Of a stretch of 64,000 nt of DNA, positions 4,505 to 57,687 are shown piece after piece. Where the stretch lies: the NCBI RefSeq assembly GCF_030646115.1, contig NZ_JAUSMX010000008.1, forward strand, positions 186,001-250,000, read 5' to 3'. This DNA is from Fluviicoccus sp. (GTDB lineage: Bacteria > Pseudomonadota > Gammaproteobacteria > Pseudomonadales > Moraxellaceae). The notes under the pieces are model-generated. The model was given only the letters and a program-made list of their open reading frames with translations. It was not told the DNA's origin and ran no database searches. The stretch's first letter is position 1; every line of letters begins with the position of its first letter. The translations under genes were made by a program, and so were the position numbers.

Positions 4505-4530
4505 GAATAACAATAATCAGGAGAACAGCC

Positions 4531-5331: not shown

Positions 5332-5333
5332 AA

Positions 5334-5430
5334 CCCCCTTGGTCCCCCTTTCCAAGGGGGAAAATCTGATGATGCACTCCGTTGCTGCAATGATCCCCCT
5401 TGGAAAGGGGACGCCCGCAGGGCGGGATTT
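5334..5430. repeat. Intergenic palindromic repeat (CCCCCTTTCCAAGGGGG type)
   Basis: A hairpin-forming CCCCCTTTCCAAGGGGG at 5344-5360 is followed about 35 bases later by a second, inverted block (CCCCCTTGGAAAGGGG) at 5395-5410, and then by a small CCCGC/GCGGG hairpin. The element occupies the gap between the hydrolase and the MDR gene. It is a third repeat type in this gene run and probably a dispersed REP-like sequence. Confidence 0.7.
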
Positions 5431-5441
5431 TGGAGCCCACT

Positions 5442-6419
5442 ATGAAAGCCGTTCTCTGCAAACAACACGGATTACCCGAAACCCTGGTGCTGGAAGATGT
5501 TCCTTCGCCCACGCCCGGCCCCAAAGAAGTGGTGATCAGCGTCAAGGCATGCGGGGTGAATTTCCCCGACACGCTCATCATCCAGAACAAATACCAGTTC
5601 AAACCGGACTTGCCGTTTTCACCGGGCGGGGAAATTGCCGGGGTGGTGAAGGCGGTGGGTGAGGGCGTGAAGCATGTGAAGCCGGGCGATACGGTGATTG
5701 CCCTGACCGGCTGGGGCGGTTTTGCCGAAGAAGTGCTGACCGACGCCGCCAAGGTGTTTCCGGTGCCGCCAATGTTCGACTTCAAGGTGGCCGCCACTTT
5801 TGCCTATGCCTATGGCACTTCGTATTACGCACTGAAGGACCGGGCGCAGCTGAAGGCCGGGGAAACGCTGCTGGTGCTGGGGGCGTCCGGCGGGGTGGGG
5901 CTGGCGGCGGTGCAACTGGGCAAGGTGATGGGCGCGAAGGTGATTGCCGCCGCGTCCACGGCTGAAAAGCTGGAGGTATGCCGTCAGTCCGGCGCGGATG
6001 AGTTGGTGAATTACAACGATGCGGACTGGCGCGAACAGATCAAGGCGCTGACCGGCGGCAATGGCGTGGATGTGGTCTATGACGCGGTGGGCGGCGGCTA
6101 TGCCGAACCGGCGCTGCGCAGCATGGCCTGGTGCGGCCGCTATCTGGTGGTGGGTTTTGCCGCCGGCGATATCCCGAAGATTCCCCTCAATCTGACGCTG
6201 CTGAAGGGCTGCGCAATCGTCGGCGTGTTCTGGGGTGACTTTGCCCGCCGCCAGCCCAAGGACAACATGGGCAACATGATGCAGCTGTTCGCCTGGCTGG
6301 CGCAGGGGCAGTTGAAACCGCATATTTCCGCCGAATACCCGCTGGAGCAGGCGGCGCAGGCGCTGAACGACCTGTTGCAGCGCAGGGCGACCGGCAAGGT
6401 GGTGCTGGTGGTGGAATAG
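5442..6419 (+). CDS. NADPH:quinone-oxidoreductase-like MDR enzyme
   Basis: Zinc-independent medium-chain dehydrogenase/reductase of 325 residues, quinone oxidoreductase subfamily. The N-terminal GroES-like domain contains ACGVNFPDTLI and GGEIAGVV without the zinc-ligand set of alcohol dehydrogenases; the Rossmann domain has LVLGASGGVGLAAVQLGK for NAD(P)H and GNGVDVVYDAVGG. I start at ATG 5442 behind TTGGAG; upstream in-frame codons run through the repeat. It closes the catabolic run and is followed by a strong terminator. Likely reduces an enoyl/alkenal or quinone intermediate; electron transfer to quinone is only a family label. Confidence 0.9.
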   Translation: MKAVLCKQHGLPETLVLEDVPSPTPGPKEVVISVKACGVNFPDTLIIQNKYQFKPDLPFSPGGEIAGVVKAVGEGVKHVKPGDTVIALTGWGGFAEEVLTDAAKVFPVPPMFDFKVAATFAYAYGTSYYALKDRAQLKAGETLLVLGASGGVGLAAVQLGKVMGAKVIAAASTAEKLEVCRQSGADELVNYNDADWREQIKALTGGNGVDVVYDAVGGGYAEPALRSMAWCGRYLVVGFAAGDIPKIPLNLTLLKGCAIVGVFWGDFARRQPKDNMGNMMQLFAWLAQGQLKPHISAEYPLEQAAQALNDLLQRRATGKVVLVVE

Positions 6420-6433
6420 GGTCACGGTAATGA

Positions 6434-6467
6434 AAAAGGGCGGCCGGATTGCTCCGGTCGCCCTTTT
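6434..6467. terminator. Bidirectional rho-independent terminator
   Basis: A 14-bp stem (6434-6447 with 6454-6467, one G-U pair) and a 6-nt loop, with A-rich and T-rich ends on both sides. It ends the plus-strand catabolic run (stop at 6419) and the minus-strand lipoprotein gene (stop at 6488), so it can serve both directions. Confidence 0.9.
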
Positions 6468-6487
6468 CAAGCGTCCAATTGCAGTGG

Positions 6488-8149: not shown

Positions 8150-8293
8150 GATCAACCTCCGTCAATTATTATTAGAATTATAGCGTCTTTTGTGAGTAAT
8201 AGTCACATTTATATTGTGGGTATTGTCGCGATGGATTTGGGCGGGGAGTGCAGGTTAGCCGGCGCTATTCGGAGAAACTATTGATTTTCCGGT

Positions 8294-8674
8294 TCAGTTG
8301 CGGTCCCTGATAGCCCAGACCTGATCCGCCAGAGCCATTGGGTCGAAGGGCTTGGCGATGACTGCCGTTGCTCCCAGTGACTTGAAGTGGGCCACTTCCT
8401 GCGGCTGCACCTTGGCCGTGACAAAAGCGAAGCGCGCACCTGCCAGTTCGGGCATCAATTGCAGGTGTTGCAGAGTGGTGGGGCCGTCCATGCCGGGCAT
8501 CATCACGTCCAGCAGGACAATGTCCGGCAGGAATCGCAAGGCGGCTTCCAGTGCTTCGGCCCCGGAAGCGCAGATGCACAGCGACATGCCCGGCTCGTCT
8601 TCCAGGGCGAATTCAACAATGGTGCGGATATCCGGTTCATCATCAACATACATGACACGTACAGGTTCAGTCAT
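8294..8674 (-). CDS. Single-domain response regulator (CheY-like receiver)
   Basis: Stand-alone receiver of 126 residues. It shows the acidic pocket in VMYVDDEPD, the phospho-accepting Asp in IVLLDVMMPGMDG, the conserved Thr in AFVTAKV and the Lys in VIAKPFDP. No output domain follows, so it either relays phosphate or acts by protein contact. It lies 37 bases downstream of a hybrid histidine kinase gene on the same strand, so its natural partners are that kinase and the Hpt-containing protein encoded divergently from it. Confidence 0.9.
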   Translation of the reverse strand: MTEPVRVMYVDDEPDIRTIVEFALEDEPGMSLCICASGAEALEAALRFLPDIVLLDVMMPGMDGPTTLQHLQLMPELAGARFAFVTAKVQPQEVAHFKSLGATAVIAKPFDPMALADQVWAIRDRN

Positions 8675-8711
8675 CTACAGGCTCCAACAGGCGTTAAAGG
8701 GTTCAAGGGGC

Positions 8712-11027
8712 TCAGGCATGAATCAGCTTGCGTATGGTCGCCAGCAGTTCTTCATTACTGGTCTTGGACTTGGTAAGTGATTCGGCAACACGGTTGCTGA
8801 TGGCGCTGGAACTCTCCTTTCCTGAAAATACCAGCACCTGGCTGCGGGGATCAATCTGCTCCAGCAGCGACAGGCCGTTACCGTCGGGCAGGCCAAGGTC
8901 CAGCAGCACCAGATCGAAAAAACCGTTCTTGAGCGCCTGGCGGGCTTCCGCCAGACTGGCCGCCGGGGTGTAGTCGGCAATGTCCTCGACCAGCAATTGC
9001 GTAATCTGCAGGATGTCCTCCGCATCTTCCACATGCAGTATGCGCGGCTTGCCGCCGGCTTGCAGTACTTGCCTCAATGCCTGTTTCAGGCGTTCAGGGT
9101 CAACCGGTTTGTGCAGCCAGTCGCTAATGTTGAGGACATCGAATCCCGGCCCGGAAGTCGGATCGCCCTGATGGCCATTGATCATGATTACCGGCAGCTT
9201 GCGGTGCTCGGGATGCTCGCGCAAGTCCTGCAACAGCGTCATGCTGTCGCCCTCGGTCATGGCGATGTCCAGCAGCATGGCGTCATAGGTGTGCATCATC
9301 AACAGCGCCTTGACCTTGGCGATCGAAAAGGCGATATCGCAGGCAAAACCTTCCTCTTGCAGCAGTTCACTGAGCATGAGCGCGGTATCGGAATTGTTCT
9401 CGCAAATCAGCAGCCGGAACCGGGCTTCGACCGCTTCCCCGGCCGGGTTGCCGATTTCGGTGGCGGGGAGGGTGAAGAAGAATTCGGTGTCGCCCGGTGC
9501 GGACGTGTAATCAACGGCGCCTTCGTGTCGTTCGACAATGGCCTTGGTGATGCTGAGTCCCAACCCGGTGCCGCCCTTGTCGCGGGTGTCCGAGGCATCG
9601 GCCTGCGCGAAGCGCTGGAAGATGCGGGGGCGGAAAGCATCGGGGATGCCCTTGCCGTTGTCGTGAACGCTGACCCGCCAGTAATGGTACTGGCGGTCTA
9701 TGCAGATGGTGACGACTCCGCCGGGCGGTGAATACTTGACGGCGTTGGAAATCAGGTTGGCGAAGACCTGCAGCAGGCGGTGTTCGTCGCCGCTGATCAG
9801 CGCCTGTTCCGGTGCGCCGTCCAGGCGCAGGCTGACCTGATGCTGGCTGGCATAGCTTTCATTGGCGGAGATCGCCTGTCGGGTGACTGCGACCAGGTCC
9901 AGGGCGGTAAAGATAAATTCCAGCCTCCCGGATTCGATTTTTTCCAGATCAAGGATGTCATTGATCAGCAAGGTCAGCCGTTCGCTGTTGCGGGTGGCGG
10001 TTTCCAGCAACTGCTTCGCCTTGGGCGACAAGCCGTCGGAAGCCTTGCCCAGCACCAGCCCCAGCGCGCCGCGAATGGAAGTCAGCGGGGTGCGCAGTTC
10101 GTGACTGACGGTGGAAATGAATTCATTCTTCAGCCGCTCCATGTGCCGCCGTTCGCTGATATCCCGCATCACGACCGTGAACATGGTGCGGTCGGCCATC
10201 TGCATTGGGCTGATACCGGCTTCCAGTGGAAAGACAACGCCGTTCTTGCGTCTGCCTTCCAGGTTGCTGTCGAGGGCGCCGCCACTGCCGTCGGTGAGGT
10301 GCGGTTCCAGTGCCGGCACCAGCTCCCGCACCGGTTTTCCGGCCAGTTCATCAGCGGCATAATCAAACAGGCGCAAAGCAGCCGGGTTGAAGTTCTCGAT
10401 AAGGCCGTGCGTGTCCAGCGTGAAAATGGCATCGGCGACGCTTTCAAAAATGGCGTAGAGCAGGATGCGCTGCTCATTCAGCTCGCGCACCGCATCCACG
10501 GTTTGCTGCATGGATAACTGCTGCTCGACGGCATCGGCGATATCCCGCAATAATTCCAGTTGGCGCGAAGACAGGGTGCGCGGCTCGCAGTCCATGAGGC
10601 AAAGCGTGCCGACCCGTTGCCGCGTGGCCCCGGCATGCAGCGGCGCGCCCGCATAAAAGCGGACATGCGGGGCACCGGTCACTGCCTTGAAATGAGCAAA
10701 GCGCGTGTCCAGCCGGGCATCCGGCACCAGCAGGATGTCCTCACCCTTTATGGCGTAATGGCAGAAAGTGTCCTCGCGGGAGCGTGCTTCCTCGCAGGGC
10801 TCCATGCCGAAGCAGGATTTGGTCCACAGCCGGTCAGCGTCGACCAGGGTGATCATGACGATCGGGATGCCGAAGACTTCGCGGACAATGCGCGTCAGCC
10901 GGTCAAAGCGCTCCTCGGGCGGGGTGTCCAGGATTTGCAGGGCGTGCAGGGCATGCAGCCGCTCGTACTCCGCCGCCATGGTGCTGTGGAGTTCGGTCTT
11001 GCTGGATCCGGTCGCCGTGGTGGTCAT
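8712..11027 (-). CDS. Hybrid histidine kinase, GAF-PAS-HisKA-HATPase-REC-REC
   Basis: Cytoplasmic sensor kinase of 771 residues with no obvious membrane segment. Order: GAF domain (about residues 25-170), PAS domain (about 185-300), HisKA with the phospho-histidine in TVSHELRTPLTS, HATPase with NAVKYSP and GTGLGLSI, then two receivers. The first receiver is atypical: its pocket reads ICENNSD and the usual Thr/Ser position is Asn (VIMING), although the Asp (MLLDIAM) and Lys (LHKPVD) remain. The second is near canonical (HVEDAED, VLLDLGLPDG, VFSGKE). There is no Hpt domain, but the divergent neighbour supplies one. GAF and PAS point to a soluble ligand or redox cue. Operon with the downstream receiver. 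Confidence 0.9.
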   Translation of the reverse strand: MTTTATGSSKTELHSTMAAEYERLHALHALQILDTPPEERFDRLTRIVREVFGIPIVMITLVDADRLWTKSCFGMEPCEEARSREDTFCHYAIKGEDILLVPDARLDTRFAHFKAVTGAPHVRFYAGAPLHAGATRQRVGTLCLMDCEPRTLSSRQLELLRDIADAVEQQLSMQQTVDAVRELNEQRILLYAIFESVADAIFTLDTHGLIENFNPAALRLFDYAADELAGKPVRELVPALEPHLTDGSGGALDSNLEGRRKNGVVFPLEAGISPMQMADRTMFTVVMRDISERRHMERLKNEFISTVSHELRTPLTSIRGALGLVLGKASDGLSPKAKQLLETATRNSERLTLLINDILDLEKIESGRLEFIFTALDLVAVTRQAISANESYASQHQVSLRLDGAPEQALISGDEHRLLQVFANLISNAVKYSPPGGVVTICIDRQYHYWRVSVHDNGKGIPDAFRPRIFQRFAQADASDTRDKGGTGLGLSITKAIVERHEGAVDYTSAPGDTEFFFTLPATEIGNPAGEAVEARFRLLICENNSDTALMLSELLQEEGFACDIAFSIAKVKALLMMHTYDAMLLDIAMTEGDSMTLLQDLREHPEHRKLPVIMINGHQGDPTSGPGFDVLNISDWLHKPVDPERLKQALRQVLQAGGKPRILHVEDAEDILQITQLLVEDIADYTPAASLAEARQALKNGFFDLVLLDLGLPDGNGLSLLEQIDPRSQVLVFSGKESSSAISNRVAESLTKSKTSNEELLATIRKLIHA

Positions 11028-45282: not shown

Positions 45283-46653
45283 TTATTGCAGCATGAACGT
45301 CTTGTATTCCAGTGACTCCAGCACCCGGTCCAGAAAACGGAAGCCGATCATGATGGTGATGGTCAGCGCCGCTGCAATGCCGTAACCGTAGAATTCCGGA
45401 CCCATCCACAAAGTGACGGCAGTGAAAGCGGCATTCAGCGCCACGAACAGGCCTGTGAGAAACAGCACAATCCAGCGGTTGTCGAGGTAGAAGAAGACAT
45501 TGATGACCCCCAGTAGCACCACCTGCAAACCCGCCGAAATAAGGTTGATGAACAGCAGCGGCAGGTAAAGCGGCGAGATATGCAGCGACTCCAGAATCCA
45601 CGGCCCGGCAATGAACAGCCCGAGCGCGGCAATGGTCTGGATCTTGATGATCTGGTAAATGCCCTGACGGACCGTGAACACCATTTCATTACGCATGTCT
45701 TCAATGAATTCCAGCGACCCGCCGGAACGCACAGCGTCAAAGAATTTGTCGTAATACTCCACGAAGTCCGTTTCCATTTTCACCAGGAATACCGCCATGC
45801 CGGGAATGATGGACAGGTAAGCCAGGAATACCGGGATGTCGTAGATGACCGAGGCGCGCAGCGGGCCGATCACGGCATGGCTGGTCGGGTCATAGAACCA
45901 GAACATGAATTTGTCCAGCCAGACGCCCAGATTGTAGAAAAAGCCCACGCCCACCAGCGTCGGGTACAGGTAGCGTTTTTCGAAGAAACGGAACTCCATA
46001 AAGTGGTCGGCGGGATAGTTGCGCAAAATCAGGATCACCATGCCGGTCAGCAGCACGAACTGGCCCAGTAAAAAGCCACCCAACAGTCCTTCCAGCCCGA
46101 AAGGCCGCAGCAGCAGGGCCATGGCCACCGTGGTGGTGTAGCCGATGCCGAACAGGCTGACAATGGCCTTGTAGTGCTTCATGCCGGACAGGAAGATAGT
46201 GGCGATCCAGATGTCGCACATTACCACGAACCCGGCCAGCATCAGCAGCCGGTACATCAGCGATTGCCCCGGAAACAGGAACACCACCGCCAGTGTCGCC
46301 AGCGAACCGGACACCAGAGTTACCCACAACAGCAAACCATTGAAGTTGGGCAGGATGACGTCGGCCTTCTTCTCGAACAAGCGGTCGGCGGTGAAGCGGG
46401 TGAAGGCCAGTTGCACAAAGCCGGTGAGGATCAGGCTGAGCGAAATCAGGTAAGTGACACTGACCTGAAACTGGGTGATCAGGAAGTCGGGCACTACCAC
46501 TGACAGGCTCATCACGCCAATGACCAGGATGCCGAGAATCGACAGCACCCAGGGCCCGGAGCTGATGATGCCGGCGTAGGTGTAGGCCTGCATGACGCCC
46601 AGCAGGCTGTCGCGCTTTAGCAGCTTGCGCAGTTCAAAACCGATACCGGCCAT
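45283..46653 (-). CDS. pelG: Pel exopolysaccharide inner-membrane transporter PelG
   Basis: Polytopic inner-membrane protein of 456 residues with about 12 TM helices, of the MOP-flippase-like PelG family. Landmarks: MAGIGFELRKLLKRDSLLG at the N terminus, MCDIWIATIFLSGMKHYKAI and VYEYYDKFFDAV-like loop around residues 300-310 (ETDFVEYYDKFF). It works with PelD and PelE and PelF to move Pel polymer across the inner membrane. The start overlaps the pelF stop (TGATG), the last gene of the pel operon. Confidence 0.95.
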   Translation of the reverse strand: MAGIGFELRKLLKRDSLLGVMQAYTYAGIISSGPWVLSILGILVIGVMSLSVVVPDFLITQFQVSVTYLISLSLILTGFVQLAFTRFTADRLFEKKADVILPNFNGLLLWVTLVSGSLATLAVVFLFPGQSLMYRLLMLAGFVVMCDIWIATIFLSGMKHYKAIVSLFGIGYTTTVAMALLLRPFGLEGLLGGFLLGQFVLLTGMVILILRNYPADHFMEFRFFEKRYLYPTLVGVGFFYNLGVWLDKFMFWFYDPTSHAVIGPLRASVIYDIPVFLAYLSIIPGMAVFLVKMETDFVEYYDKFFDAVRSGGSLEFIEDMRNEMVFTVRQGIYQIIKIQTIAALGLFIAGPWILESLHISPLYLPLLFINLISAGLQVVLLGVINVFFYLDNRWIVLFLTGLFVALNAAFTAVTLWMGPEFYGYGIAAALTITIMIGFRFLDRVLESLEYKTFMLQ

Positions 46654-48200
46654 CAGCCTTTCTCCGCAGCAGGGGGCAGGGCGTTGGATTCGGCCAGCGC
46701 GCTGTGATAAACCTCCCGGTAGCGACTGAACATTTGCTCCTGGGTGTAATAACGCTCCACGCGGGCGATACCCGCCGCTTGCGCCTGCCGCCAGGCATCG
46801 TCGTCATCCAGCAGGCGGATGATGGCGTTGGCCAGCGCCTGCGGGTCGGCAATGCCAACCACGATCCCGGAGGGGCCCATCGCCTTGTCATCGGCATCCA
46901 GCCCTTCCACCAGCTGGCGGCAGGAGCCGACATCGGTGGCGACGCAGGGCACCCCGGCGGCATAACCCTCCAGGATCACCAGCGGCAGGGCTTCCGAGAT
47001 GGAGCTGAGCGCCAGCAGTCCCACTTTTGGCAGCAGTTCGTCGATTTTCTGGAAACCCAGGAATTTGACGGTGTCGGCCAGCCCCAGCCCGGTGGCCAGG
47101 GTGCGGCAGTCCCGGGCATAGGCCGGGTCTTCATCTTCCGGCCCGGCTATCCAGGCCTGCACATCCGGCAGGCGGTTGGCGACGGTGCGCATGGCGCGGA
47201 TGAAGGTCTTGATGTCCTTGATGGGCACCACCCGGCCGATCAGGCACACCGTCCGGGGAGTGCGGGCCGGGCGGTTGGCGCGCAACTTCTGCAATGCGGG
47301 CAGATTGATGCCGTTGGGGATGTTCTCGGTGCGTTCGGCCGGGGCGCCGTCCTGCACCTGCCGCAGGCGGTTGGCTTCATACAGGCTGATGATGCGGCTG
47401 GCGTTGGCGTAACACTCGCGGCCCAGAGCTTCAAAGAACCGCACCCACAGGTGGCGGAAGTAGGCCACTTCTGAAGTGTCTTTTTCCAGCACGCCGCGAT
47501 TGTCGCGAATCCATTCCGCCTGGAAGAGGTCGATCTTGCGTTCCTTGGTATAGATGCCATGCTCGGACAGCAGCAAGGGCCGCTTGGTCATCACCTTCAG
47601 CATGGCGCCCAGGAAACCGGCGTAACCGGTGGAAATGGTGTGGAAGGCGCGCACCGGGATGAAGTTTTCAGCCACTTCCATCAACCGCCACAGCGGCGCG
47701 TGCATGATGCGCACCGTCCAGAAGTAATCGACAAACGAGGGGTCGGTGCAGTGCGCCCGGTATTGTTCGGCAATGAAATTCCAGGATTCGCGGCTGTAGA
47801 GAAAGTCTTCTTCCCGGTACATGCCGCCGGCCCGGTGCTGGAGAATGTTGCCGATCAGCGACGGGCAGCCGCCGCGGGCGGCCGGGTTGCGGAACTGCTC
47901 GTGCAGGTTGCGGACTTCCTTGAACACCGCCGGGTCGCCGCGATGGCTGATGACGGGCGGCTTTTCACGGCCGTCATGCAGATAATGGGTTTCCAGATGC
48001 ACCACGTTGTCGGGTAGCGCATAGCGCATATCACCATAGTCTTCGGGGCGGCTGCCGATAAAGCACAGCGCAAAGGTGTATTCCGGAAAACCCCGGATGA
48101 TCTGGTTGACCCAGCTGGAAACGCCGCCGCTGACATAGGGGAATGTGCCTTCCAGCAGCAGACCGATATCGGCGCGGGTTCCCTGACGGATGATGCTCAT
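46653..48200 (-). CDS. pelF: Pel glycosyltransferase PelF
   Basis: Cytoplasmic GT4 glycosyltransferase of 515 residues that polymerises Pel from UDP-activated amino sugars. The N-terminal part has LLLEGTFPYVSGGVSSWVNQII and LSEHGIYTKERKI; the C-terminal nucleotide-binding part has CLIGRVVPIKDIKTFI and SISEALPLVILEGYAAGVPCVATDVG with the E-x7-E motif of GT4. ATG 48200 is preceded by GGAGGAAA and its start overlaps pelE stop as ATGA. Coupled to pelG downstream. Confidence 0.96.
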   Translation of the reverse strand: MSIIRQGTRADIGLLLEGTFPYVSGGVSSWVNQIIRGFPEYTFALCFIGSRPEDYGDMRYALPDNVVHLETHYLHDGREKPPVISHRGDPAVFKEVRNLHEQFRNPAARGGCPSLIGNILQHRAGGMYREEDFLYSRESWNFIAEQYRAHCTDPSFVDYFWTVRIMHAPLWRLMEVAENFIPVRAFHTISTGYAGFLGAMLKVMTKRPLLLSEHGIYTKERKIDLFQAEWIRDNRGVLEKDTSEVAYFRHLWVRFFEALGRECYANASRIISLYEANRLRQVQDGAPAERTENIPNGINLPALQKLRANRPARTPRTVCLIGRVVPIKDIKTFIRAMRTVANRLPDVQAWIAGPEDEDPAYARDCRTLATGLGLADTVKFLGFQKIDELLPKVGLLALSSISEALPLVILEGYAAGVPCVATDVGSCRQLVEGLDADDKAMGPSGIVVGIADPQALANAIIRLLDDDDAWRQAQAAGIARVERYYTQEQMFSRYREVYHSALAESNALPPAAEKG

Positions 48201-49213
48201 GCGGATTTTCCTCCCTGTCCCCAAAAAGCGGCGGACAATTGCAGCGGACGGGAGCGTCCCTCGGTGCGCAGGCCCTGCATCAACTGCCGGGTGGTGTCAA
48301 AGTCACCGCGCATGAAGGCCAGCTCCGCCAGATAGGGTTCGGCGCGTACCTTCGGGAAGCCCTGGCGGATGGCGGTGGCGAAGGATCCGGTGGCGCCGTT
48401 GTAGTCGCCGGTCAGCAGCCGCATGCGTCCGGAAATGACCCAGAGGCCGGTGTCCTTGACCTTCCAGGCCAGCGCTTCGTTGCAGTAAAGCTTCACCTGC
48501 GCCAGCGCGTAGCTGCGCATGTCGCCCTGCACCAGTTCTTGATAGACCATTTCCCAATACAGCTCGGCCAGTTCGCGGGCGGCCAGATAGCGGGCTTCGT
48601 CATCCCGGCCGGCCGTTTGATGGCGTTGCAGGGCGTGTTCAATGCGGTGGGTCAGTTGCTGTTCGCGGGCGTCCAGCATGCCATATGCCAGCAGCCGCAG
48701 GTCGTCGGTGCTGTCGGCCAGCGCCTCGCGCAGGATGCCGGACGATTGGCGGGTGGGGACGTCCTGTAACGCCAGCAGCGCTTTCATCCGCAGTTCAAGC
48801 GGGGCAGAGGTGTCGGCAATCTGCTGGCGGACACGGCCGGAACGCCAGCCGCTGACCGGCGTGGTCTTGGGCAGTTCGTAATGCGGGGTGGCGACGGCGT
48901 CGAAATCCTCGCGCTTGGGCAGGCGCGGCAGCCAGGCGGCGACCATGGCTCCGATGGCGAAGCCGAACAGGCCCAGCACCGGGATGAAGAAACAGAGGCT
49001 GTACAGCAGCACCAGCACCCAGCGCCGGGGCTGCTGGTAGTTGGCGGGCATCAGTGACCAGGCCAGCGGCGTGATGCAGGCGCAGGCCAGGGCATGCATC
49101 AGGAAATACTCACTGAGTACGTGCAGTTCGCGGCTGCTGGTCAGCACCAGGGCGACGGCGCCCAGCTCCAGGGTGACTGCAGCGGCGCCCAGTTTGACGT
49201 TGGTGCTAGCCAT
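48197..49213 (-). CDS. pelE: Pel inner-membrane protein PelE
   Basis: Inner-membrane protein of 338 residues. Two or three N-terminal TM segments (AAAVTLELGAVALVLTS; ALACACITPLAWSLM; LVLLYSLCFFIPVLGLFGFAIGAMVAAW) precede a cytoplasmic helical domain with TPR-like repeats (LELRMKALLALQD, DLRLLAYGMLDARE). This matches PelE, which forms the inner-membrane complex with PelD, PelF and PelG. ATG 49213 overlaps the pelD stop by 8 bases; an upstream ATG would overlap pelD further. Confidence 0.9.
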   Translation of the reverse strand: MASTNVKLGAAAVTLELGAVALVLTSSRELHVLSEYFLMHALACACITPLAWSLMPANYQQPRRWVLVLLYSLCFFIPVLGLFGFAIGAMVAAWLPRLPKREDFDAVATPHYELPKTTPVSGWRSGRVRQQIADTSAPLELRMKALLALQDVPTRQSSGILREALADSTDDLRLLAYGMLDAREQQLTHRIEHALQRHQTAGRDDEARYLAARELAELYWEMVYQELVQGDMRSYALAQVKLYCNEALAWKVKDTGLWVISGRMRLLTGDYNGATGSFATAIRQGFPKVRAEPYLAELAFMRGDFDTTRQLMQGLRTEGRSRPLQLSAAFWGQGGKSA

Positions 49214-50579
49214 GGGAACCGGTCTCCAACTGGCAGCGATCCAGCAAGGCGTGCAGCAACTCGGCCGGTTGCAGTTCGCCAATGCGTTTGGAGTGCGCCA
49301 GTACGCCGGATTCCGCCAGCGTCTTGAAGCCGAACAGGTCCTTCAGCCACTTTTCAGTGCGCAGGAAATAGCCGGTGACGGCGGCTTCGCCATCCAGCGG
49401 CATTACCGTCAGCAGGATGTCGCGGTCCGGCAGGTGCAGGTCCCAGATCACGTCCATCTGCCGGCGCTGGCGGCGGGCTTCGGCGGCCAGGTCAAAACGC
49501 AGGGCCGAGTGCGGAATCACCAGCGCGGCGACGCTCGAGTTGAGTCCGCTGATACGGAACAGGTGATCCAGACGCAGCAGTTCCGCGCCGAATTCCACCG
49601 GGCATTCCTGACCCAGCAACAATTGCAGCACTTCGAAACTGGCCTCGGGCACCCCGATGCTGTCGCTGTAGTAGCCCAGGATGACGCCCATGAACTGCAG
49701 GGTTTCCGGGTTCAACGACAGGAAGGGCAGACGCTCCACCACCAGAATGCCGAAACAGCGTCCGTCGGCCGCCAGCAGCGGGGCGGCCACCAGATAAGCA
49801 GTTCGGGCCTTTTGCAGCGAGTCGGTCTGGATATGGCACAGCTCCTTGCCGTCCAATGCATAGGTTATCAGTGGGTCGCTGGCGTTGAGCGGGCTGACTT
49901 CCCCCAGCGAAGCTACCGGCCGGATGCTGACCCGGCCGTCGGTGACGCTGTGCAGGCTGGCGACTTCCAGCTGGCAGTTCTGGCTGAGCAGGTTGAGCAA
50001 GGTGGCGGCTTGAGGCAGATCGTGCGGGTTGCGGACCGGCTCATTGGCCAGGCCGCGCCGCAGCGCCATCAGCGAGTCGCGCAGGGTCAGCGGCTTCACC
50101 AGCAGATCCTGTTCCAGCCGTTCGTGCGAGAGTTTCAGCAGGTAATGCCGCCGCGTCAGCGATTCCAGACGTTCATTCAGGTAGACGTTGGCTTCGCGCA
50201 CCCGCTGCAAGCGCGAGGTCCAGATGTCGGAAAATTCCCCGGCAATCAGGCTCAGCACCAGCCCGCCCATGAAGTACTCGGACGGGAAGGCTGACGGGGT
50301 GGCGGCGATGGCCTGCTGCAGCACCCAGCCGCCGGCCATCAGGCCGATGGAGCCGAAGGCCGCCAGCGTGCCGTAACGCAGCGCCAGCACCGTACACACC
50401 AGCCACAGCCAGGGAAAGGCCAGCTGGATCAGCAACGGGTCCTGCGGGTGCGTCCAGGCCGCCAGCGCCATGCTGCCCAGGGTAAAGAGCAGCACTTCAT
50501 AAACCGCCTGGCGGCTGTACTGTTTGGGCGCAAACCAGATGGCCAGGCGGCTCGGGGTCAGGGTGGGCATACCAATCAT
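49206..50579 (-). CDS. pelD: c-di-GMP receptor PelD
   Basis: Inner-membrane protein of 457 residues that switches on Pel synthesis when it binds c-di-GMP. Four TM helices (about 25-115) are followed by a short helix, a GAF domain (about 165-310) and a degenerate GGDEF domain. The inhibitory-type c-di-GMP site RxxD is R373-Q-M-D376 in QRRQMDVIW, close to R367/D370 of P. aeruginosa PelD; the GGDEF active-site motif is absent. The start at 50579 has AGGA a few bases upstream. Confidence 0.93.
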   Translation of the reverse strand: MIGMPTLTPSRLAIWFAPKQYSRQAVYEVLLFTLGSMALAAWTHPQDPLLIQLAFPWLWLVCTVLALRYGTLAAFGSIGLMAGGWVLQQAIAATPSAFPSEYFMGGLVLSLIAGEFSDIWTSRLQRVREANVYLNERLESLTRRHYLLKLSHERLEQDLLVKPLTLRDSLMALRRGLANEPVRNPHDLPQAATLLNLLSQNCQLEVASLHSVTDGRVSIRPVASLGEVSPLNASDPLITYALDGKELCHIQTDSLQKARTAYLVAAPLLAADGRCFGILVVERLPFLSLNPETLQFMGVILGYYSDSIGVPEASFEVLQLLLGQECPVEFGAELLRLDHLFRISGLNSSVAALVIPHSALRFDLAAEARRQRRQMDVIWDLHLPDRDILLTVMPLDGEAAVTGYFLRTEKWLKDLFGFKTLAESGVLAHSKRIGELQPAELLHALLDRCQLETGSHG

Positions 50580-50669: not shown

Positions 50670-51209
50670 TCAGCGTGCCGGAACCAGCGCTTCATCCAAC
50701 AACTGGTTGACGACCTTCTGCGCCACGCCGCTGACGGCTTCACGGCTCCAGCCGGTGCGGGCGGCGCTGCCGCTCCAGATCACCTGGCCGCTGCTGAGGT
50801 CGGTGATGCTAAGGGTGATACCGGCGGCCGGTTCCCCGTCCAGGCCCACCTTGTAACGCCATTCATCCACGCTGCCGGAAACGGCATAACGCGCCTGTTG
50901 TTCCTTGGCCCACACCATCGCCTTTTCCTGACCGGCGCGGTCGGCCTGCTCCAGCAGCGCATCGCCGGAGCGGGCTGCCGGCCAGACGCTCAGGTTCTGC
51001 ACGCCATGCACGCGCAGCAGGCTGGCCGTCAGGCTGTCGAGGCGGGCGCCGGCCTGCGGGGTTTCGGTGTTGTTTACGGCAGGCAGCAGTACCCAGGCGG
51101 CCTTCAGGTCCACGCCCGGCGCGCGGGTGGCGGACAGCGTCGAGCAACCGGCTGCGCCAAGCAGGCTGCCGGCAAGCAGGGTGGTGACAAACAGTTTTGC
51201 AGTGTTCAT
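50670..51209 (-). CDS. pelC: Pel outer-membrane lipoprotein PelC
   Basis: Lipoprotein of 179 residues with lipobox LGAAGC (Cys22), which in P. aeruginosa forms a 12-mer ring under the outer membrane that guides the polymer to PelB. The rest has an alpha/beta layout with ITLSITDLSSGQVIWSGSAARTGW near the C terminus. ATG 51209 has GAGGA eight bases upstream; ATG 51215 is too close to it. It lies between pelB and pelD in the operon. Confidence 0.93.
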   Translation of the reverse strand: MNTAKLFVTTLLAGSLLGAAGCSTLSATRAPGVDLKAAWVLLPAVNNTETPQAGARLDSLTASLLRVHGVQNLSVWPAARSGDALLEQADRAGQEKAMVWAKEQQARYAVSGSVDEWRYKVGLDGEPAAGITLSITDLSSGQVIWSGSAARTGWSREAVSGVAQKVVNQLLDEALVPAR

Positions 51210-51237: not shown

Positions 51238-54048
51238 TCAGTAAAAAATCCGGTAATCCAGACGCAGTTCGCCGGTGCTGTTGCCCTGGCTCTGTCCGGA
51301 ACGCCCGGCCTGCAGTTGCAGGCGCAGGCGGTCGCCCCCCAGCAGCGGGCCTTGCACCCCCAGCAGCGACTGGTAACCGGCGCCGCCATTATCGGAGTAA
51401 TTGGCGCCCAGCTCGCCGAAGCCGCGCCAGCCGCGAACGGGCTGCTCCTCGGGAATCTGCCCGAAGGCCCAGGCCAGGGCAAGCTGGCGATAGTCCTGCG
51501 GGATGAAGAAGCGGCTGTCGGCCGCCGCCCCGGCGGGAACCAGGGTGGCGAGCGCCGGGGAAAGCGGCGTGGCGGCGGCGCTGAACCGCCCCTCGCCCAA
51601 TTGCATTTTCAGCATGTGGTCGCTCTGACCGGCAAACAGCCGGTGCCCGGCTTCCAGCAGCAGGGTGCGGCCGCTGCCCAGGCTTTCCCCGGTTTGCGCC
51701 TGGTAATCGTGCTGCTCCAAGCGCAGGTTCAGGTGGTGGCGTCCGTCCGGGGTCCAGTTGAAACCGGTGGCCAGCTTGTCATCCAGACCAGCCACGCGTA
51801 GCGGCAGGCTGTCGGCGGTCAGGGCCCCGGTATGCAGGGCCCAGTCCAGGCGCAGGCGGCTGTCGACTGTATAGGTCTGCGCCAGCAGCAGGCCGGTGTT
51901 ACGGGCCAGGCCCTCCGACTGCTGCAGTCCCGCCAGCCACAGGCTGCGCGCGGACGGGTGCGACAGTTGCAGCGACAGCAGGCGGCGGTTGTCCGGATCA
52001 CGGCCCAGGGCAGCGGCATCTTTCCGGCTCGGATTTTCCTGATGCAGGGTCAGCGCCAGCCGGTTGCCATCGCCCAGAGGTGCTTCCCATTGCAGGGCGG
52101 TTCCAGCGTAATCAAGGCCCCCTTGGCGGGCATCCAGCGCCTGCACGCTCAGCCGGTGGCCGTGCGCGCCGCCCAGGCGCACAAAGCGCCGATGCAGTTC
52201 ATCATCGTCCGGAGCCTCGGTTTCCAGGGTGCGGAAGGCCAGATCCACCGCAAGGTCATGGCGTCCCAGACGTTCTGCCGCTTCAAGACGGTCATAGATC
52301 GGCAGTTCTTCCAGCCGCTGGTTGATCAGCTTGTCCATGGCCGGCCGGTCTTCCACCGGCAAGGCAAAGCCCAGCGCCGCCCAGCCGGGCAGGCGCAGGT
52401 CCGGCGTTCGGGCTGCCAGGTTGAGGGCGGCATCGGCGGCGTCATGGTTCAACAGCCAGCTTAAGCTGAGGTCGCGGCTGAAAGAGTCGGGTTTGCCGCC
52501 GCCCAGCCGGTCCAGCAACAGGCGGCGGCCGGGGCCGGGCCGGGCCTGTTGCAGCTTCAACGCCAGCAGGGCGTCTTCCAGCTGGCGGCGGCGCTCGGGC
52601 CGTTCGGCATCCAGATGCGCCCCGGCGCGGGCCAGGACTGCCTGCCGCAGTTGCCGTGCCTGTGCCAGCTGTCCTTGGGCATCCAGCGTGTCGGCCAGCG
52701 CCAGGGCGGCCAGGGCATCTTCAGGATGGCGGCGCTGCCAGGCCAATTGATAAGGCAGCGCGCGCGATAACTGCCGCAGTCTTTGCCAGCCGGACGCCCA
52801 GGCCGGCCACAACGGCTCATGCCGCCGCGCCAGTCCTTCGCGGGTTTCCAACAAGTAACGCAAGGCCAGCGTGTCATCCTGTTCCAGCAGCACTCCGGCC
52901 AGTCCCTGCACCAGCCGAACCGAGTCCGGGGCCAGTTGCAGTCCCCGGACGTAGTCGCGGCGGGCATCCGCCAGCCGACCGCGCACCCAGGCCAACCGCG
53001 CCCGCTGTTCCAGGAAACCGCCATTTGCTTCAAGCCGGGTGACGGCTTCCGGGGTCAGCGAGGCGAGGAAGGCGTCGGCGGCGCTCCAGGCCCTCGCCAC
53101 CTGCCACAGCGACAGCGCGTTGATGGCTCCGTTGTCGCGCGCAAAGCGCCGGAACAGCAACTCCTGCAGGCCGGCGGCGGCCAAGGGGTCCTGTTCCTGG
53201 ATCAGGGCGGCGTAATTCCACAAATCGCCTTCGCTGTAAGTATTCCCGTCCATCAGCACTTGATAGGCGCGCTGTGCGGTTTCGGTCAGGTTCAACAGCC
53301 GCGAAAGTTCGGCATAGGTCTGCCAGTAACCGGTCGCCGCTGACGGCATCTGCTTTTCGACGGCGGCCAGCCCGGCCTGGGCGCGGGGTAGATCACCGCG
53401 CCGGTATTGCAGGGCGGCCCGGCGTAACAGCCAAGCCTCCTTTGGCTTGGGTACGGCCAGCAAACGATCCAGTGCGGTTATGGCCTCGGCATCCTGGCCG
53501 CTGCGCTCGGCCAGCAGCGCTTCCACTTCCAGCACCGCTGCACGTGACTTGCCGTTCTCCAGACCCTTCAGGAAGCGCAGGCCGTCCTGCGGGCGTCCCA
53601 GCCGTTCATAGATTTCCGCCAGCTTCAGCAGCGTCGGCAAATCAGCGGGGCGCTGCGTGGCCAGCCGCTGCTGATAGGCCAACAGGGCTTCGTCATCCAG
53701 CAGCATCGGCGCCAGCCGCGCCACGGCGTTCCAGCTTTCATCGGCGCCGGTCAACCGGGCATGGCGCAGCCAGGCGGACAGGGCTTCGGCGGGTTCGCCC
53801 ACCCATTCCGAAACCTGGGCATACCGTTTCAGCCAGGCCGCATCTTCCGGCTTGAGGCTCACGGCTTTCCGCGCCACCTGCCAGGCGGCGGGCAGGTTGC
53901 GTCCGGCGACATAAATATCAAAGCCGAGGGTATAGCGGGTATCGTCAAACGGGGCTTGCGGAATGCCGGCTTTTTCATCCAGCAGGGAAATTTCCGCCAT
54001 GGCGAAGCCGGAAAATGTCAGCAGCAGCACGGCCGGGATAAGCTTCAT
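51238..54048 (-). CDS. pelB: PelB C-terminal part: periplasmic TPR and outer-membrane barrel
   Basis: Protein of 936 residues. A signal peptide (LIPAVLLLTFSGFAMA) precedes a long helical TPR region (to about 590; repeated ALxW/LLxA-type helices), then a C-terminal beta-barrel domain of about 300 residues ending GELRLDYRIFY, with a terminal aromatic residue for BAM recognition. In P. aeruginosa one PelB polypeptide of about 1190 residues carries both the TPR and barrel. Here an N-terminal piece is encoded separately upstream and the start overlaps its stop (ATGA). The signal peptide is convincing, so this is a genuine separate protein rather than a frameshift remnant. Confidence 0.88.
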   Translation of the reverse strand: MKLIPAVLLLTFSGFAMAEISLLDEKAGIPQAPFDDTRYTLGFDIYVAGRNLPAAWQVARKAVSLKPEDAAWLKRYAQVSEWVGEPAEALSAWLRHARLTGADESWNAVARLAPMLLDDEALLAYQQRLATQRPADLPTLLKLAEIYERLGRPQDGLRFLKGLENGKSRAAVLEVEALLAERSGQDAEAITALDRLLAVPKPKEAWLLRRAALQYRRGDLPRAQAGLAAVEKQMPSAATGYWQTYAELSRLLNLTETAQRAYQVLMDGNTYSEGDLWNYAALIQEQDPLAAAGLQELLFRRFARDNGAINALSLWQVARAWSAADAFLASLTPEAVTRLEANGGFLEQRARLAWVRGRLADARRDYVRGLQLAPDSVRLVQGLAGVLLEQDDTLALRYLLETREGLARRHEPLWPAWASGWQRLRQLSRALPYQLAWQRRHPEDALAALALADTLDAQGQLAQARQLRQAVLARAGAHLDAERPERRRQLEDALLALKLQQARPGPGRRLLLDRLGGGKPDSFSRDLSLSWLLNHDAADAALNLAARTPDLRLPGWAALGFALPVEDRPAMDKLINQRLEELPIYDRLEAAERLGRHDLAVDLAFRTLETEAPDDDELHRRFVRLGGAHGHRLSVQALDARQGGLDYAGTALQWEAPLGDGNRLALTLHQENPSRKDAAALGRDPDNRRLLSLQLSHPSARSLWLAGLQQSEGLARNTGLLLAQTYTVDSRLRLDWALHTGALTADSLPLRVAGLDDKLATGFNWTPDGRHHLNLRLEQHDYQAQTGESLGSGRTLLLEAGHRLFAGQSDHMLKMQLGEGRFSAAATPLSPALATLVPAGAAADSRFFIPQDYRQLALAWAFGQIPEEQPVRGWRGFGELGANYSDNGGAGYQSLLGVQGPLLGGDRLRLQLQAGRSGQSQGNSTGELRLDYRIFY

Positions 54049-54959
54049 GGTTGGCGTCCGGGAGTCTGGATGCGTTGCTTCAGTAACAACGACACGTAAT
54101 ATTCAGCAATATCGGGGCGGTTGGCGGCCAGCGCCAGCCGGGCCAGCGCCTCCAGCGTGACCGGATCGTTCGCCAGTGAGCCGAGGCGGAGGCGGGCGGC
54201 GTTCAGCGCTTCTTCCAGCCGGTTGGCGGCCTGGAAATGACGCATGGCCTCCAGGAACAGGATACGGCGCTGCTCCGGTGTCGGCGTCAGATCCAGCCCC
54301 AGCAGCAGGATGCGTCCGGCCATGGCGGGTTGGTTGTCGGCCAGCGCCAGCACGGCAATCTGCCGGTACCAGTTCAGATTACGCGGGCGGTCACTGGTGA
54401 TCAGCCGCAAATACAGATTTCTGGCGAGGTGGATTTCCCCCATGGCGTAGGCCTTGGCGGCAAAGTGTTCCAGGCGGTCGTCAAACCGGGGCGACCGGCT
54501 CAGGATGCGCAACTGTTCAATGAACTCTTTCTGGCGGCGCATGAAAATGGCGGAGTCGGCTCTTTCCGCCCACAGCAGCTTCTCCAGCAGGTTCAAGTGC
54601 AGCAATTCCGCCCGGTAACGGTCCTGCTCATCCAGTGCGGGTGAGGCCAGCACCGGTTGCAAGGTGGTCCAGGCGCGGAAGACCTGTCCGGTCTCGTGCT
54701 GGTGCAGCGCCAGTTGCAGGCGTAGATGATGGTCGTCCGGCTTGGCGCGCAACCAGGCCATCAGGTAGGCGATGGTCAGTGAGTCGCTGGCGGCCGATTG
54801 CTCCAGGCGGCGTTGCAGTATCTGCCCCGGAAACATCATCAACAGGATCAGCGCCACCGTCAGCCCGAAGATCAGGGTCTGACCGCTGCTGGAGAAGCGC
54901 AGCCGCACCGGCTCAGCGGTGGCAGACGATCTGGAGCGCAGCGAGATCATGGCGGACAT
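54045..54959 (-). CDS. PelB N-terminal part: membrane-anchored TPR protein
   Basis: Protein of 304 residues. One N-terminal TM helix (about 29-48, LIFGLTVALILLMMFPG) is followed by TPR-like helices (AYLMAWLRAKPDDHHLRLQL; LARNLYLRLITSD; RPDIAEYYVSLLLKQR). It corresponds to the inner-membrane-anchored N-terminal section of full-length PelB. The start overlaps the end of pelA by 47 bases (ATG 54959; ATG 54950 would reduce this to 38), and the stop overlaps the next start. Together with the following gene it gives about 1240 residues, close to one complete PelB. Confidence 0.8.
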   Translation of the reverse strand: MSAMISLRSRSSATAEPVRLRFSSSGQTLIFGLTVALILLMMFPGQILQRRLEQSAASDSLTIAYLMAWLRAKPDDHHLRLQLALHQHETGQVFRAWTTLQPVLASPALDEQDRYRAELLHLNLLEKLLWAERADSAIFMRRQKEFIEQLRILSRSPRFDDRLEHFAAKAYAMGEIHLARNLYLRLITSDRPRNLNWYRQIAVLALADNQPAMAGRILLLGLDLTPTPEQRRILFLEAMRHFQAANRLEEALNAARLRLGSLANDPVTLEALARLALAANRPDIAEYYVSLLLKQRIQTPGRQP

Positions 54960-57687
54960 TCTCGATAATCAGACGGGAACCTTGCCGGGTAAAGGGCAGG
55001 GGGCGGTTTTTGATTTGCGCCCGACAGGCGGCAGCGTTGGCGAATACCAGGCGTAACGGCTGATAACCGCGCACATCCAGGGTCAGGTTGCCGCTGACAT
55101 CCCGCTTGAAGCCGGTAATCCGGGCGTTGGCGGACTCCAGATACGGGGAGGCATCCGGCTCGGCAGTCAGGTTCAGCAGGGCGTCGTCACCGGTCAGGTG
55201 CACATAACGCGCCTGCGGACCCGGAGCCATGCCCGCCACAGCCAAGCTATGCGCCAGGTCCGGAGCCGGACCGGTCAACGGCAGGCGCATGGTGCGCAAG
55301 TCGCCGTTGCCGCGCAGGCGCAGCCCGTCGGGAGTGCGCGCCACGACAAAGTCATTGAAGTCCAGCACCTTGCGGATGTATTCCGATGCAAATACCGGAT
55401 GCAGCGGTTTCGACAGCGCCCAGCGGTACACCTCGTGCAAAGCCTGCAGCGAGGCCGTCTTGGAGGCGGCATAGGTATGGTAATAAATGTCCACCGGCTT
55501 GAAGCGAAGGGGGGTTTCGGTCAGTTCGAAGGTTTCGATGACGCGCCGGAATCCGTAAAAGGGGCCGGTCCAGAGATTCGTGTAGACATTCTCGTTCTGG
55601 TTAGGGGCAAACACCTGATAATAACCGTTGCGCGGCCTTCCCGGCCCGGCAATCTGTGTCCAGGAGTTGCGGCTGCGGGTAATCACGGTGTCGCCGCCAT
55701 TCATGTTCAACAACCCGGCCTTGTCAGCCGCAGCCAAGGCCTCTTCAGTGGCGACACAGTTGCCGGTCCACAGGAAGACCTTGGCCGGTTTGTCCTTGGG
55801 CGTCAGCCTACTGTTGATATAGTCCAGCGAACCGCCGATTTCCCGATTGACGTTATAGGTATATTCCGGGATGGCGAGGTGATAGCTTTCGCCGTTATCC
55901 AGATTGGACTCTGCCTTGCCCCAATGGAAGGGATGGGAGTAGGAGTGGCTGGCCGCTTCCACCCAGGGCAGGGCGAAAATGTCGCGGGCAATGCCTTCCA
56001 GTTGTGCGGATTTGGCCGGATACAGGCCGTTCGCGCCTATTTCGCCCTCAATCACTGACATGGTGGTGGGCAGCGGGTATTTCTTCAGCAGTTCGTCGCG
56101 CAGCACCTGACCGCTGGGCGGTGCGCCGAAGCGTTCGGCGCCGCTGGCGAAGCCGTCGCCGTCAATGTGCACCAGCAGCAACCGCCGGCCGTTCTCCGTG
56201 GTGATGTCCGGCACCGGAATGGAAGGATCAAGTTTCAGCGCCTGGCTCAGGAAGGTCAGGGGGTTGATATACCAGCGCTCGCCGTTGTCCTGCCCCGGCA
56301 ATTGGCCGACGGTATAAGGCGCCAGGGCATAGCCGCCCCAGGCGGTCAAGGCGGCGGGGTGGAAGATCTGGCCCGCCGAGGAGTAGATGGTCAGCAGCGG
56401 TTGCCCTTCACCGCTCAGTCGTAACGGATACAATTCGCCCTGACGCGGCGTCACCGGCAGTTCAAAGCCGGTCATGGTATGCCGGGCGGTCACTTTCAGC
56501 AGGGCGGACTTGTCGGCCTCGAAAGATTGCACCCCCAGTTTGCGCAGCAGCGGGTTGTCGTAGGCCATGCCGAAACGGCTGAACACCGCCAGCGGCACCC
56601 CGACATCGACCTGCCGCTCCAGCCAGGCAGCATAACGTCCGCCATCCGCCACTTCATCGCTGTTGATCCAGCTGACAATACCTGCATATCGACCGGTCAG
56701 CGGATAGTCCGGCAAGGGGCCATTGACCGGCACATAGTCGGGCGCCAGTCCCAGCCTAGCCATGGGCATACCCAGAAAACGCAGGGGATCAGAGTAATGG
56801 AGATCCGGACTCTCCGCCGGGTTGTAGAGTACCAGCACCCTGCGCGGCAGGACTTCCACAGAACCCACGCCCAACTGGTCCAGCGCCGGTGCCGACACCC
56901 ACGGAATGAAGCCGTCTTCGCGCAGCCGGTGCGCGGTTTCACGCGCCAGCGTGCGGTCGCCGGGGGGTACGTAATCAATGACCAGCACCGGCTTGCCATA
57001 ATCGGCCTGCACTGACTTCAGTTTCGCCGACAACCATTGCCGGTCTTTTGCCGGTACTTCCGCAAAACGCCTGGCAGCGGCGTCCCACCCCCGGTACAGT
57101 GACTCCGCCGCCACCATCCAGACATCGTTGTGGATTTGCGGCAGAATCTCAAAACCCCGGTTCACGATCAGCCGTGCTGCGGGCCATCGAGCCTTCAGGG
57201 CGTGAATGGTGCGGCGCATGCCCGCTTCCTGGAGGGCGCGGCTTTCGGGTGTCTTGGCCACCAACTGATAACTGTCCAGGGTATCCAGGAAAAAGCCGCG
57301 ATATCCGGCCTGCCACAACGGCGCAATGACCTGGTCCAGGAAAAAATCCGTCCATGCCGCTGCGGACTGGTCCACGACACGGCTGCCCCAGGCGCGGTTG
57401 CTGCCGGTCAGCAGCGACGGGGGAATTTGCTTGAACCAGGACCGGCCGGGATGCACTTCGCCGAGGCTGACGTAGGCGAACAGTTCACTGCCGGGATGCT
57501 TGAAACGGTTGGGGGAGGCGACATGATCCGGGTCCACGACGGCGACATCGAAGGCGCGCAATTCCGCAAGGGGCGGGTTGGCCCCGTAATAGAGGGCCAC
57601 GCTGGGAAGGGGCGCCGCTTGCACGCCTGTCCCAGGTATCAGGGACAGCAAAGCCAGCAGGGAGCACAGGAGTGACCTCAGCACCAT
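54913..57687 (-). CDS. pelA: Pel hydrolase/deacetylase PelA
   Basis: Periplasmic bifunctional enzyme of 924 residues that trims and deacetylates Pel. A signal peptide (LLCSLLALLSLIPGTGVQA) precedes the GH166 hydrolase domain, with a probable catalytic Glu195 in VAAESLYRGW. The deacetylase domain has HIDGDGF (D509/D511) and ASHSYSHPF (H581/H585), spaced as D528/D530 and H600/H604 of P. aeruginosa PelA. A C-terminal beta-rich domain completes the protein. First gene of the operon; a perfect palindrome lies about 115 bases upstream. The product makes Pel cationic and able to bind extracellular DNA. Confidence 0.96.
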   Translation of the reverse strand: MVLRSLLCSLLALLSLIPGTGVQAAPLPSVALYYGANPPLAELRAFDVAVVDPDHVASPNRFKHPGSELFAYVSLGEVHPGRSWFKQIPPSLLTGSNRAWGSRVVDQSAAAWTDFFLDQVIAPLWQAGYRGFFLDTLDSYQLVAKTPESRALQEAGMRRTIHALKARWPAARLIVNRGFEILPQIHNDVWMVAAESLYRGWDAAARRFAEVPAKDRQWLSAKLKSVQADYGKPVLVIDYVPPGDRTLARETAHRLREDGFIPWVSAPALDQLGVGSVEVLPRRVLVLYNPAESPDLHYSDPLRFLGMPMARLGLAPDYVPVNGPLPDYPLTGRYAGIVSWINSDEVADGGRYAAWLERQVDVGVPLAVFSRFGMAYDNPLLRKLGVQSFEADKSALLKVTARHTMTGFELPVTPRQGELYPLRLSGEGQPLLTIYSSAGQIFHPAALTAWGGYALAPYTVGQLPGQDNGERWYINPLTFLSQALKLDPSIPVPDITTENGRRLLLVHIDGDGFASGAERFGAPPSGQVLRDELLKKYPLPTTMSVIEGEIGANGLYPAKSAQLEGIARDIFALPWVEAASHSYSHPFHWGKAESNLDNGESYHLAIPEYTYNVNREIGGSLDYINSRLTPKDKPAKVFLWTGNCVATEEALAAADKAGLLNMNGGDTVITRSRNSWTQIAGPGRPRNGYYQVFAPNQNENVYTNLWTGPFYGFRRVIETFELTETPLRFKPVDIYYHTYAASKTASLQALHEVYRWALSKPLHPVFASEYIRKVLDFNDFVVARTPDGLRLRGNGDLRTMRLPLTGPAPDLAHSLAVAGMAPGPQARYVHLTGDDALLNLTAEPDASPYLESANARITGFKRDVSGNLTLDVRGYQPLRLVFANAAACRAQIKNRPLPFTRQGSRLIIENVRHDLAALQIVCHR

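Follow-up and report, generated by a model that had tools for sequence, protein, structure and literature searches.

In Pseudomonas aeruginosa, PelB is described as one chain (PMC12022489, PMC12141448), in which tetratricopeptide repeats (TPRs) 1–19 occupy residues 69–726 (PMC12022489), TPRs 9–14 are reported to be required for PelA localisation and biofilm (PMC12022489) and residues 332–436 form a PelA-binding TPR fragment (PMC12141448, PMC12022489). A 2025 structural paper proposes that this single chain may bridge both membranes, with the TPR scaffold acting as the passage for Pel (PMC12141448). Here, we analyse the pelB region of a 64,000-nt stretch of DNA from Fluviicoccus sp. (assembly GCF_030646115.1, contig NZ_JAUSMX010000008.1, positions 186,001–250,000; herein referred to as the window, whose own positions serve as its coordinates), the minus strand of which holds a complete pel operon in the order pelA-B1-B2-C-D-E-F-G. 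It is probable, in our judgement, that pelB is here truly two overlapping genes, encoding separately exported modules of a two-part exporter for which we infer both coupled synthesis and mutual contact.

The pelB1–pelB2 junction

The two genes share the four nucleotides ATGA (54045..54048, minus strand, as for all window features below), which contain the stop of pelB1 (54045..54959, 304 residues) and the start of pelB2 (51238..54048, 936 residues), as the first-pass annotation had read from the open reading frames (ORFs). Both genes begin with ATG, and pelB1 has a second in-frame ATG three codons downstream. The ORF, profile matches and an AlphaFold2 model describe pelB1 as an N-terminal membrane helix followed by a TPR-like helical array: the model (mean predicted local distance difference test score, pLDDT, 90.9) contains a helix at residues 25–42, which is the predicted membrane helix (54834..54887; 19-residue hydropathy 2.17), and 14 more helices up to residue 298, six residues short of the C-terminus. 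A PF14561 TPR match to pelB1 lies barely above its cut-off, and a Foldseek search with the model returned general TPR proteins among the 50 matches listed. The N-terminus of pelB2 reads MKLIPAVLLLTFSGFAMA and exceeds in hydrophobicity every sampled window of the pelB2 body; its first 18 residues (53995..54048) resemble a signal peptide in hydropathy, charge and a loose A-X-A pattern. Domain searches place TPRs (PF13429, residues 203–474, E 2.8e-36) and the PelB_C beta-barrel domain (PF24604, residues 629–935, 51244..52164; E 5.9e-58, 197.3 bits against a cut-off of 31) behind this segment, and pelB2 as a query finds one match in the window's genome.

Taken together, pelB1 and pelB2 are co-linear with P. 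aeruginosa PelB, with the junction at approximately residues 280–297. A profile of the pelB1 family (B1) matches residues 4–278 of the P. aeruginosa chain (PDB 9h80_M; E 3.5e-39, the window's pelB1 sequence by itself giving only E 0.24), and pelB2 (B2) aligns to residues 297–1056 (E 1.6e-14). By our own arithmetic from the published numbering, the cut falls at about TPR 6/7, such that TPRs 9–14 would all lie on pelB2; the PelA-binding region, residues 332–436, also maps wholly to pelB2 in an approximate alignment (53500..53805). Profiles and alignments hence bear out the first-pass placement of the split between inner-membrane-anchored TPRs and a part comprising TPRs and the outer-membrane barrel, and its description of P. 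aeruginosa PelB as a single polypeptide agrees with PMC12022489 and PMC12141448.

The junction recurs well beyond the window. Among 29 candidate loci (window included), 26 have B1 in place and a B2 that begins with a signal-peptide-like segment and overlaps the B1 stop by either 4 nt (NTGA) or 1 nt (TAATG). This count includes some near-copies and was favoured by a start finder that preferred hydrophobic candidates close to the end of B1. In 25 of these 26 loci, we took the B2 start from the overlap alone before measuring it: the first ten B2 residues are net positive and the start is hydrophobic in all 25, a hydrophobic segment lies near the N-terminus of all 25 B1 proteins, and only 31 of 1725 windows within B2 bodies reach the hydrophobicity of their own protein's start. 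A Shine-Dalgarno-like motif precedes B2 in 16 of these 25 loci. The first-pass suggestion that the junction be followed across pel operons has thus yielded 25 loci besides the window with the overlap and the signal-peptide-like start. The three exceptions are L070, with runs of N at the junction, L081, in which the signal-peptide-like start is in a different frame from the rest of B2, and L164 from Accumulibacter (2822-7040), whose pelB frame is broken in several places, possibly by assembly error. The first break in L164 interrupts the B1-homologous part and is not followed by a signal-peptide-like start, in contrast to the true splits.

Substitution patterns point to purifying selection on both halves. 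In the two closest pairs of loci, the nonsynonymous and synonymous divergences (dN/dS) are 0.015/0.241 and 0.026/0.445 for B1 and 0.020/0.187 and 0.015/0.191 for B2, and the last 40 codons of B1 likewise show mostly silent changes; seven pairs were measured, of which the five distant ones have partly saturated dS. Signal-peptide codons are under looser constraint in the distant pairs, and signal peptides usually vary more freely.

The remaining genes of the window's operon are pelA (54913..57687; 924 residues, hydrolase and deacetylase, PF03537 E 4e-23), which overlaps the start of pelB1 by 47 nt, pelC (50670..51209; 179 residues, a lipoprotein-like start and a weak LpoB-type match below cut-off), pelD (49206..50579; PF16963 E 5.9e-27), pelE (48197..49282), pelF (46653..48224; NF038011 E 1.6e-245) and pelG (45283..46653; PF16933 E 1.5e-157). 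The names pelC and pelE follow from gene position, start and profiles that we built up from proteins of the window, and the pelE profile matches other loci.

Distribution and history of split and single-chain pelB

Within the window's family, 16 of 348 genomes carry a PelB_C barrel: 11 are split, two single-chain (G005, G020), two barrel-only (G004, G231) and one (G003) starts at a contig end. Nine of the 11 split genomes are clean, G368 having internal N runs and G030 being fragmented. This composition contradicts the possibility, raised in the first-pass annotation, that all close relatives have single-gene PelB. Named pel loci were found through PelF, and the best 80 of 566 comprise 58 single-chain, 14 split and eight undecidable cases (pelB absent or cut in seven; L164 broken). 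Among the 14 split loci, two of which duplicate records of the family genomes, are isolates of Alcanivorax jadensis, A. nanhaiticus, A. profundi, Alloalcanivorax marinus and A. xenomutans as well as metagenome-assembled genomes (MAGs) called Rhodoferax and Curvibacter. In the class and phylum samples, counts rest on matches above the barrel cut-off. An even sample of the class gave 16 such genomes among 370, with eight split (the window's own included, and G599 with an extra frame break within B2), seven single and one cut by a contig end; the phylum sample gave 17 among 397, with 15 frames of single-chain length (11 of which were checked for an in-frame B1), the window genome and one ambiguous genome (G1023). 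In parts of the class the split is therefore frequent, but across the phylum only a minority of loci have it.

Frame length alone was rejected as a test for a single chain: L095 has an open frame of 1339 residues yet two genes. The other pelB-holding tree rows called single have the B1 profile in the frame of the barrel (L103 by a partial match only), and L087, L092, L130, L122, L076 and L208 were assigned to neither form. A plasmid search matched three Cupriavidus records, without an annotated gene beneath the match. Several loci depart from both forms. L080 (G004, reverse strand 6962-8116) and L075 (G231, 355-1581) encode barrel-only PelB_C proteins with a signal-peptide-like start and are orphan barrels, the other pel genes giving no match within the fetched stretch. 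L087 (G1023, reverse strand 6507-10928) is a divergent pel-like operon in which the PelA match is limited to the hydrolase part, the PelB-like protein is without the B1 part and a PelC match was not found. L174, from Burkholderia stagnalis, has pelD-G and a PelA-like frame on the opposite strand, with no PelB or PelC match within the fetched stretch; the stretches of L105, L108, L125 and L171 likewise contain no pelB.

We inferred trees from PelD, PelF and PelG combined and from PelB. For the former, 13 of 121 stretches (four duplicates, nine incomplete) were dropped to give 108 rows, 38 near-copies, long or unknown rows were then removed to give 70 (25 split, 44 single, one unknown), and 25 more to give 45. 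The split and single labels change four times on the 70-row tree, all changes being forced by starred branches, and four times on the 108-row tree; a careful 45-row tree without long rows requires three changes, and its bootstrap trees three to four. A split group of Moraxellaceae and Alcanivoracaceae has support of 95 (starred) in the quick tree and 90/88 (unstarred) in the careful one, the Rhodoferax/Curvibacter split group has 100 (starred), and several further split rows lie deep. The unrooted tree as reconstructed places the splits in no fewer than three groups. Approximately unbiased (AU) tests, with groups picked after the trees were seen, rejected a single group of all splits plus L078 and L076 (p 8e-4), a union of Rhodoferax/Curvibacter with Moraxellaceae/Alcanivoracaceae only (p 0.008) and the exclusion of L078 from the split group (p 1.4e-4). 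The PelB tree (68 rows, L095 omitted) requires five changes and agrees on Rhodoferax/Curvibacter and on L078; it separates Alcanivoracaceae from Moraxellaceae, unlike the PelD+PelF+PelG tree, which speaks against a simple history. The single chains L078/L079 (Moraxellaceae) adjoin the split L071 in both trees and, in the alignment, are without the B1 tail, the signal peptide and the B2 leader; their position among split rows and the missing segment read as a re-fusion. These trees indicate more than one gain or loss of the split; they are unrooted and include no outgroup.

Three-gene pelB and the hinges of single chains

A further division occurs in L086 (G614, reverse strand 5167-9211), where B1 is followed by a 547-residue TPR protein and a 504-residue protein combining an alpha-rich part with the barrel; the second and third genes have signal-peptide-like starts, and each overlaps the preceding gene by 4 nt. 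The barrel is present in 19 of the 31 genomes of the order to which G614 belongs, and of the 18 examined (all save G1114), 13 have the complete three-gene form, three are partial and in agreement (contig ends or N runs), one has two genes (L217) and one is uninformative (L208). The complete loci, each encoding an inner-membrane TPR protein, a periplasmic TPR protein and a barrel, are L086, L204, L205, L207, L209-L216 and L219; in L215 and L219, the first gene was assigned by its place and hydrophobic start rather than by a profile match. B2 and B3 overlap by 4 nt in most of these loci and by 8 nt in L207, L209 and L210; the overlap is ambiguous in L204. L217 (G1103, reverse strand 5565-8528), which stands beside the three-gene L218/L219, joins B2 to B3, and neither the B3 signal peptide nor the linker is left at the junction. 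L095, from another family yet within the three-gene group, also has B2 and B3 joined and perhaps keeps a decayed signal peptide at the joint.

The order with three-gene loci is probably Acidithiobacillales, because rusticyanin is above its cut-off in eight of its 31 genomes and an epimerase-type gene follows pelG in L086. This gene belongs to the NAD-dependent sugar epimerase/dehydratase family (PF01370, E 1.8e-63; its best NCBIfam matches are all below their cut-offs), and an epimerase/dehydratase gene after pelG has been reported for At. thiooxidans and At. caldus (PMC5852609). Against this name stand four genomes (G1103, G1106, G1113, G1124) with rusticyanin and PelB_C together, since the Acidithiobacillus papers, in the parts available to us, describe pel only in sulphur-only species without iron oxidation.

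Both cut sites coincide with regions of variable length in single chains. We placed the B1 and mature-B2-start profiles on 73 single-chain PelBs (L095 excluded), and the distance between them ranges from about -19 residues in the Pseudomonas type to about +400 in Burkholderiaceae, with L103 an outlier at -60 on a partial B1 match. The junction shows the largest length variation in PelB (standard deviation 66.6 residues per 20-column window; the next largest is 23.3), and its linkers are enriched in Ala and Pro relative to the whole of PelB. The second cut, between profile columns ~725-733 and 763-812 (about residues 716-774 on a Pseudomonas-type chain), coincides with the second and third largest length variation and lies near the published end of the TPRs at residue 726 (numbering of PMC12022489). 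Modelling of residues 1-560 of L115, an Oxalobacteraceae single chain, gave a pLDDT below 50 at the N-terminal residues 1-12 and 35-37 and at 314-341, the last of which is the B1–B2 junction; in this one modelled single chain, the junction is thus predicted to be disordered. Where the linker is long, the two ends of a single chain may behave as separate bodies. Two loci are unusual at this position: the PelB linker of L156 (Burkholderia sp. 8Y) exceeds 300 residues and consists largely of N-A-V-N-like repeats, and L172, a Burkholderiaceae MAG, has a duplicated TPR block of ~420 residues.

Proposed mechanism, alternatives and known systems

We propose that pelB1 and pelB2 are probably translationally coupled through their overlap. 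B1, anchored in the inner membrane by its N-terminal helix, would present some seven TPR-like helix pairs to the periplasm and take up Pel from the PelDEFG synthase, and B2, exported separately via its own signal peptide, would carry the PelA-binding TPRs, as in P. aeruginosa, together with the barrel working with the PelC ring. The two solenoids would either meet end to end, non-covalently, in the periplasm or hand the polymer over, such that a continuous membrane-to-membrane polypeptide would be unneeded. We infer the coupling, the export route, the division of labour, the end-to-end contact and the need for both genes in Pel from gene arrangement, homology and models. Relatives encode PelB as one, two or three proteins, and the continuous chain appears to be optional: the naturally occurring two- and three-gene forms suggest that PelB need not, as a rule, be one covalent chain from membrane to membrane and that such continuity would be dispensable in a modular relay. 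We hold with roughly even confidence the broader view that PelB works as a relay with at most three separable modules (a TPR receiver at the inner membrane, a TPR/PelA platform in the periplasm and a barrel in the outer membrane), joined optionally and cut and re-joined at two hinges.

Several observations weigh against this account. Single chains greatly outnumber split ones in the phylum sample (15 of 17), and the TPRs of Pseudomonas-type PelB continue across the junction without a linker, so these species may use a rigid, continuous scaffold. Nine of the 25 measured loci, the window included, have no Shine-Dalgarno-like motif for B2 in a sequence scan, which would mean that B2 there may depend wholly on coupling. 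Signal peptides throughout were judged by hydropathy, charge and the loose A-X-A pattern rather than by a dedicated predictor.

The arrangement could in principle reflect a sequencing error or a recent frameshift in a single-chain pelB, given that a -1-frame overlap can resemble a 1-nt shift and that a truly broken case exists in Accumulibacter (L164). However, the site and overlap class are constant in 26 of the 29 loci across several families, the extra signal-peptide-like segment is absent from aligned single chains and changes in both genes are mostly silent; the arrangement also occurs in named isolates of other families. For the arrangement in general, we regard error or frameshift as refuted and its residual probability as negligible, in accordance with the first-pass argument that this is no mere frameshift. 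The position of B2 in the -1 frame of B1 in the measured loci would also suit a programmed -1 frameshift that yields a fused B1–B2 protein in addition to the separate ones, and an X XXY YYZ heptamer lies near the end of B1 in two of the 25 loci (L085, L074). Such a heptamer is missing from the other 23, window included, so that no slippery sequence is common to them; fusion would moreover bury a signal-peptide core inside a periplasmic chain, and B2 has its own Shine-Dalgarno-like motif in 16 loci. We rejected programmed frameshifting, which we consider very unlikely.

An alternative that takes both genes as real holds that B1 is a dispensable remnant and that B2 exports alone, in the manner of BcsC- or PgaA-like exporters lacking an inner-membrane anchor. 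Here, B2 combines the PelA-binding TPRs with the part that contacts PelC and with the barrel, and TPRs 9–14 are those reported as required in P. aeruginosa (PMC12022489), but a separate B1 is present in every two-gene locus that has the interval from pelA to B2 on its contig, and its changes are mostly silent down to the last 40 codons in the two closest pairs; dispensability of B1 is hence unlikely. Less easily set aside, though still the minor possibility, is that the split is ancestral and that the recurrent event was fusion into single chains, not fission: the L078/L079 fusion seems real on both trees and by its missing segment, and most of the deepest rows under midpoint rooting are split. 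The unrooted trees nevertheless show neither direction, and split groups stand apart among single-chain Betaproteobacteria, a single split group being rejected (p 8e-4). Our preferred reading remains two overlapping genes for separately exported modules. Split PelBs of this kind are ready-made parts in which each half can be deleted, tagged or localised alone, unlike in a single chain, and their split sites indicate positions for dividing or joining a single-chain PelB.

Among known exporters, BcsC and PgaA also combine TPRs with a barrel and are not known to have an inner-membrane-anchored TPR half. They differ from split PelB in being single chains as described in PMC9384988, where a BcsC helix between TPR modules is considered a possible hinge. 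P. aeruginosa PelB shares with the window both the operon order and the order of modules (inner-membrane helix, TPRs, barrel) and differs in being one polypeptide where the window has two and an extra signal peptide. A divided pelB is already in print for thermophiles, as 'pelB fission ... in aquatic thermophilic species' (PLoS Comput Biol 2020, PMC7112194, legend to Fig 5(iii)), which resembles the present loci in that pelB is divided into more than one gene; the portions of that text compared do not go into the site, the signal peptide, the overlap, the spread in Pseudomonadota or a three-gene form. A limited look at the literature, covering text rather than figures and supplements, turned up no other account of a PelB in two or three genes and no paper using the names pelB1/pelB2, and the three Acidithiobacillus papers do not mention a divided pelB in the parts available to us. 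If the order is rightly named, the three-gene PelB belongs to a pel operon in which deletion of pelD alters biofilm (PMC5852609).

The closest parallel in plan is alginate export, in which the TPR scaffold AlgK and the barrel AlgE are separate and cooperate (PMC9734138, PMC9384988), as the parts of a three-gene PelB would. AlgK is an outer-membrane lipoprotein, whereas the PelB parts have ordinary signal-peptide-like starts and homology to PelB; the names AlgK and AlgE are absent among the PDB sequence matches and the 50 fold matches listed, no direct comparison was made, and the likeness is one of plan only. On that plan, the export of Pel and that of alginate may differ less than has been thought.

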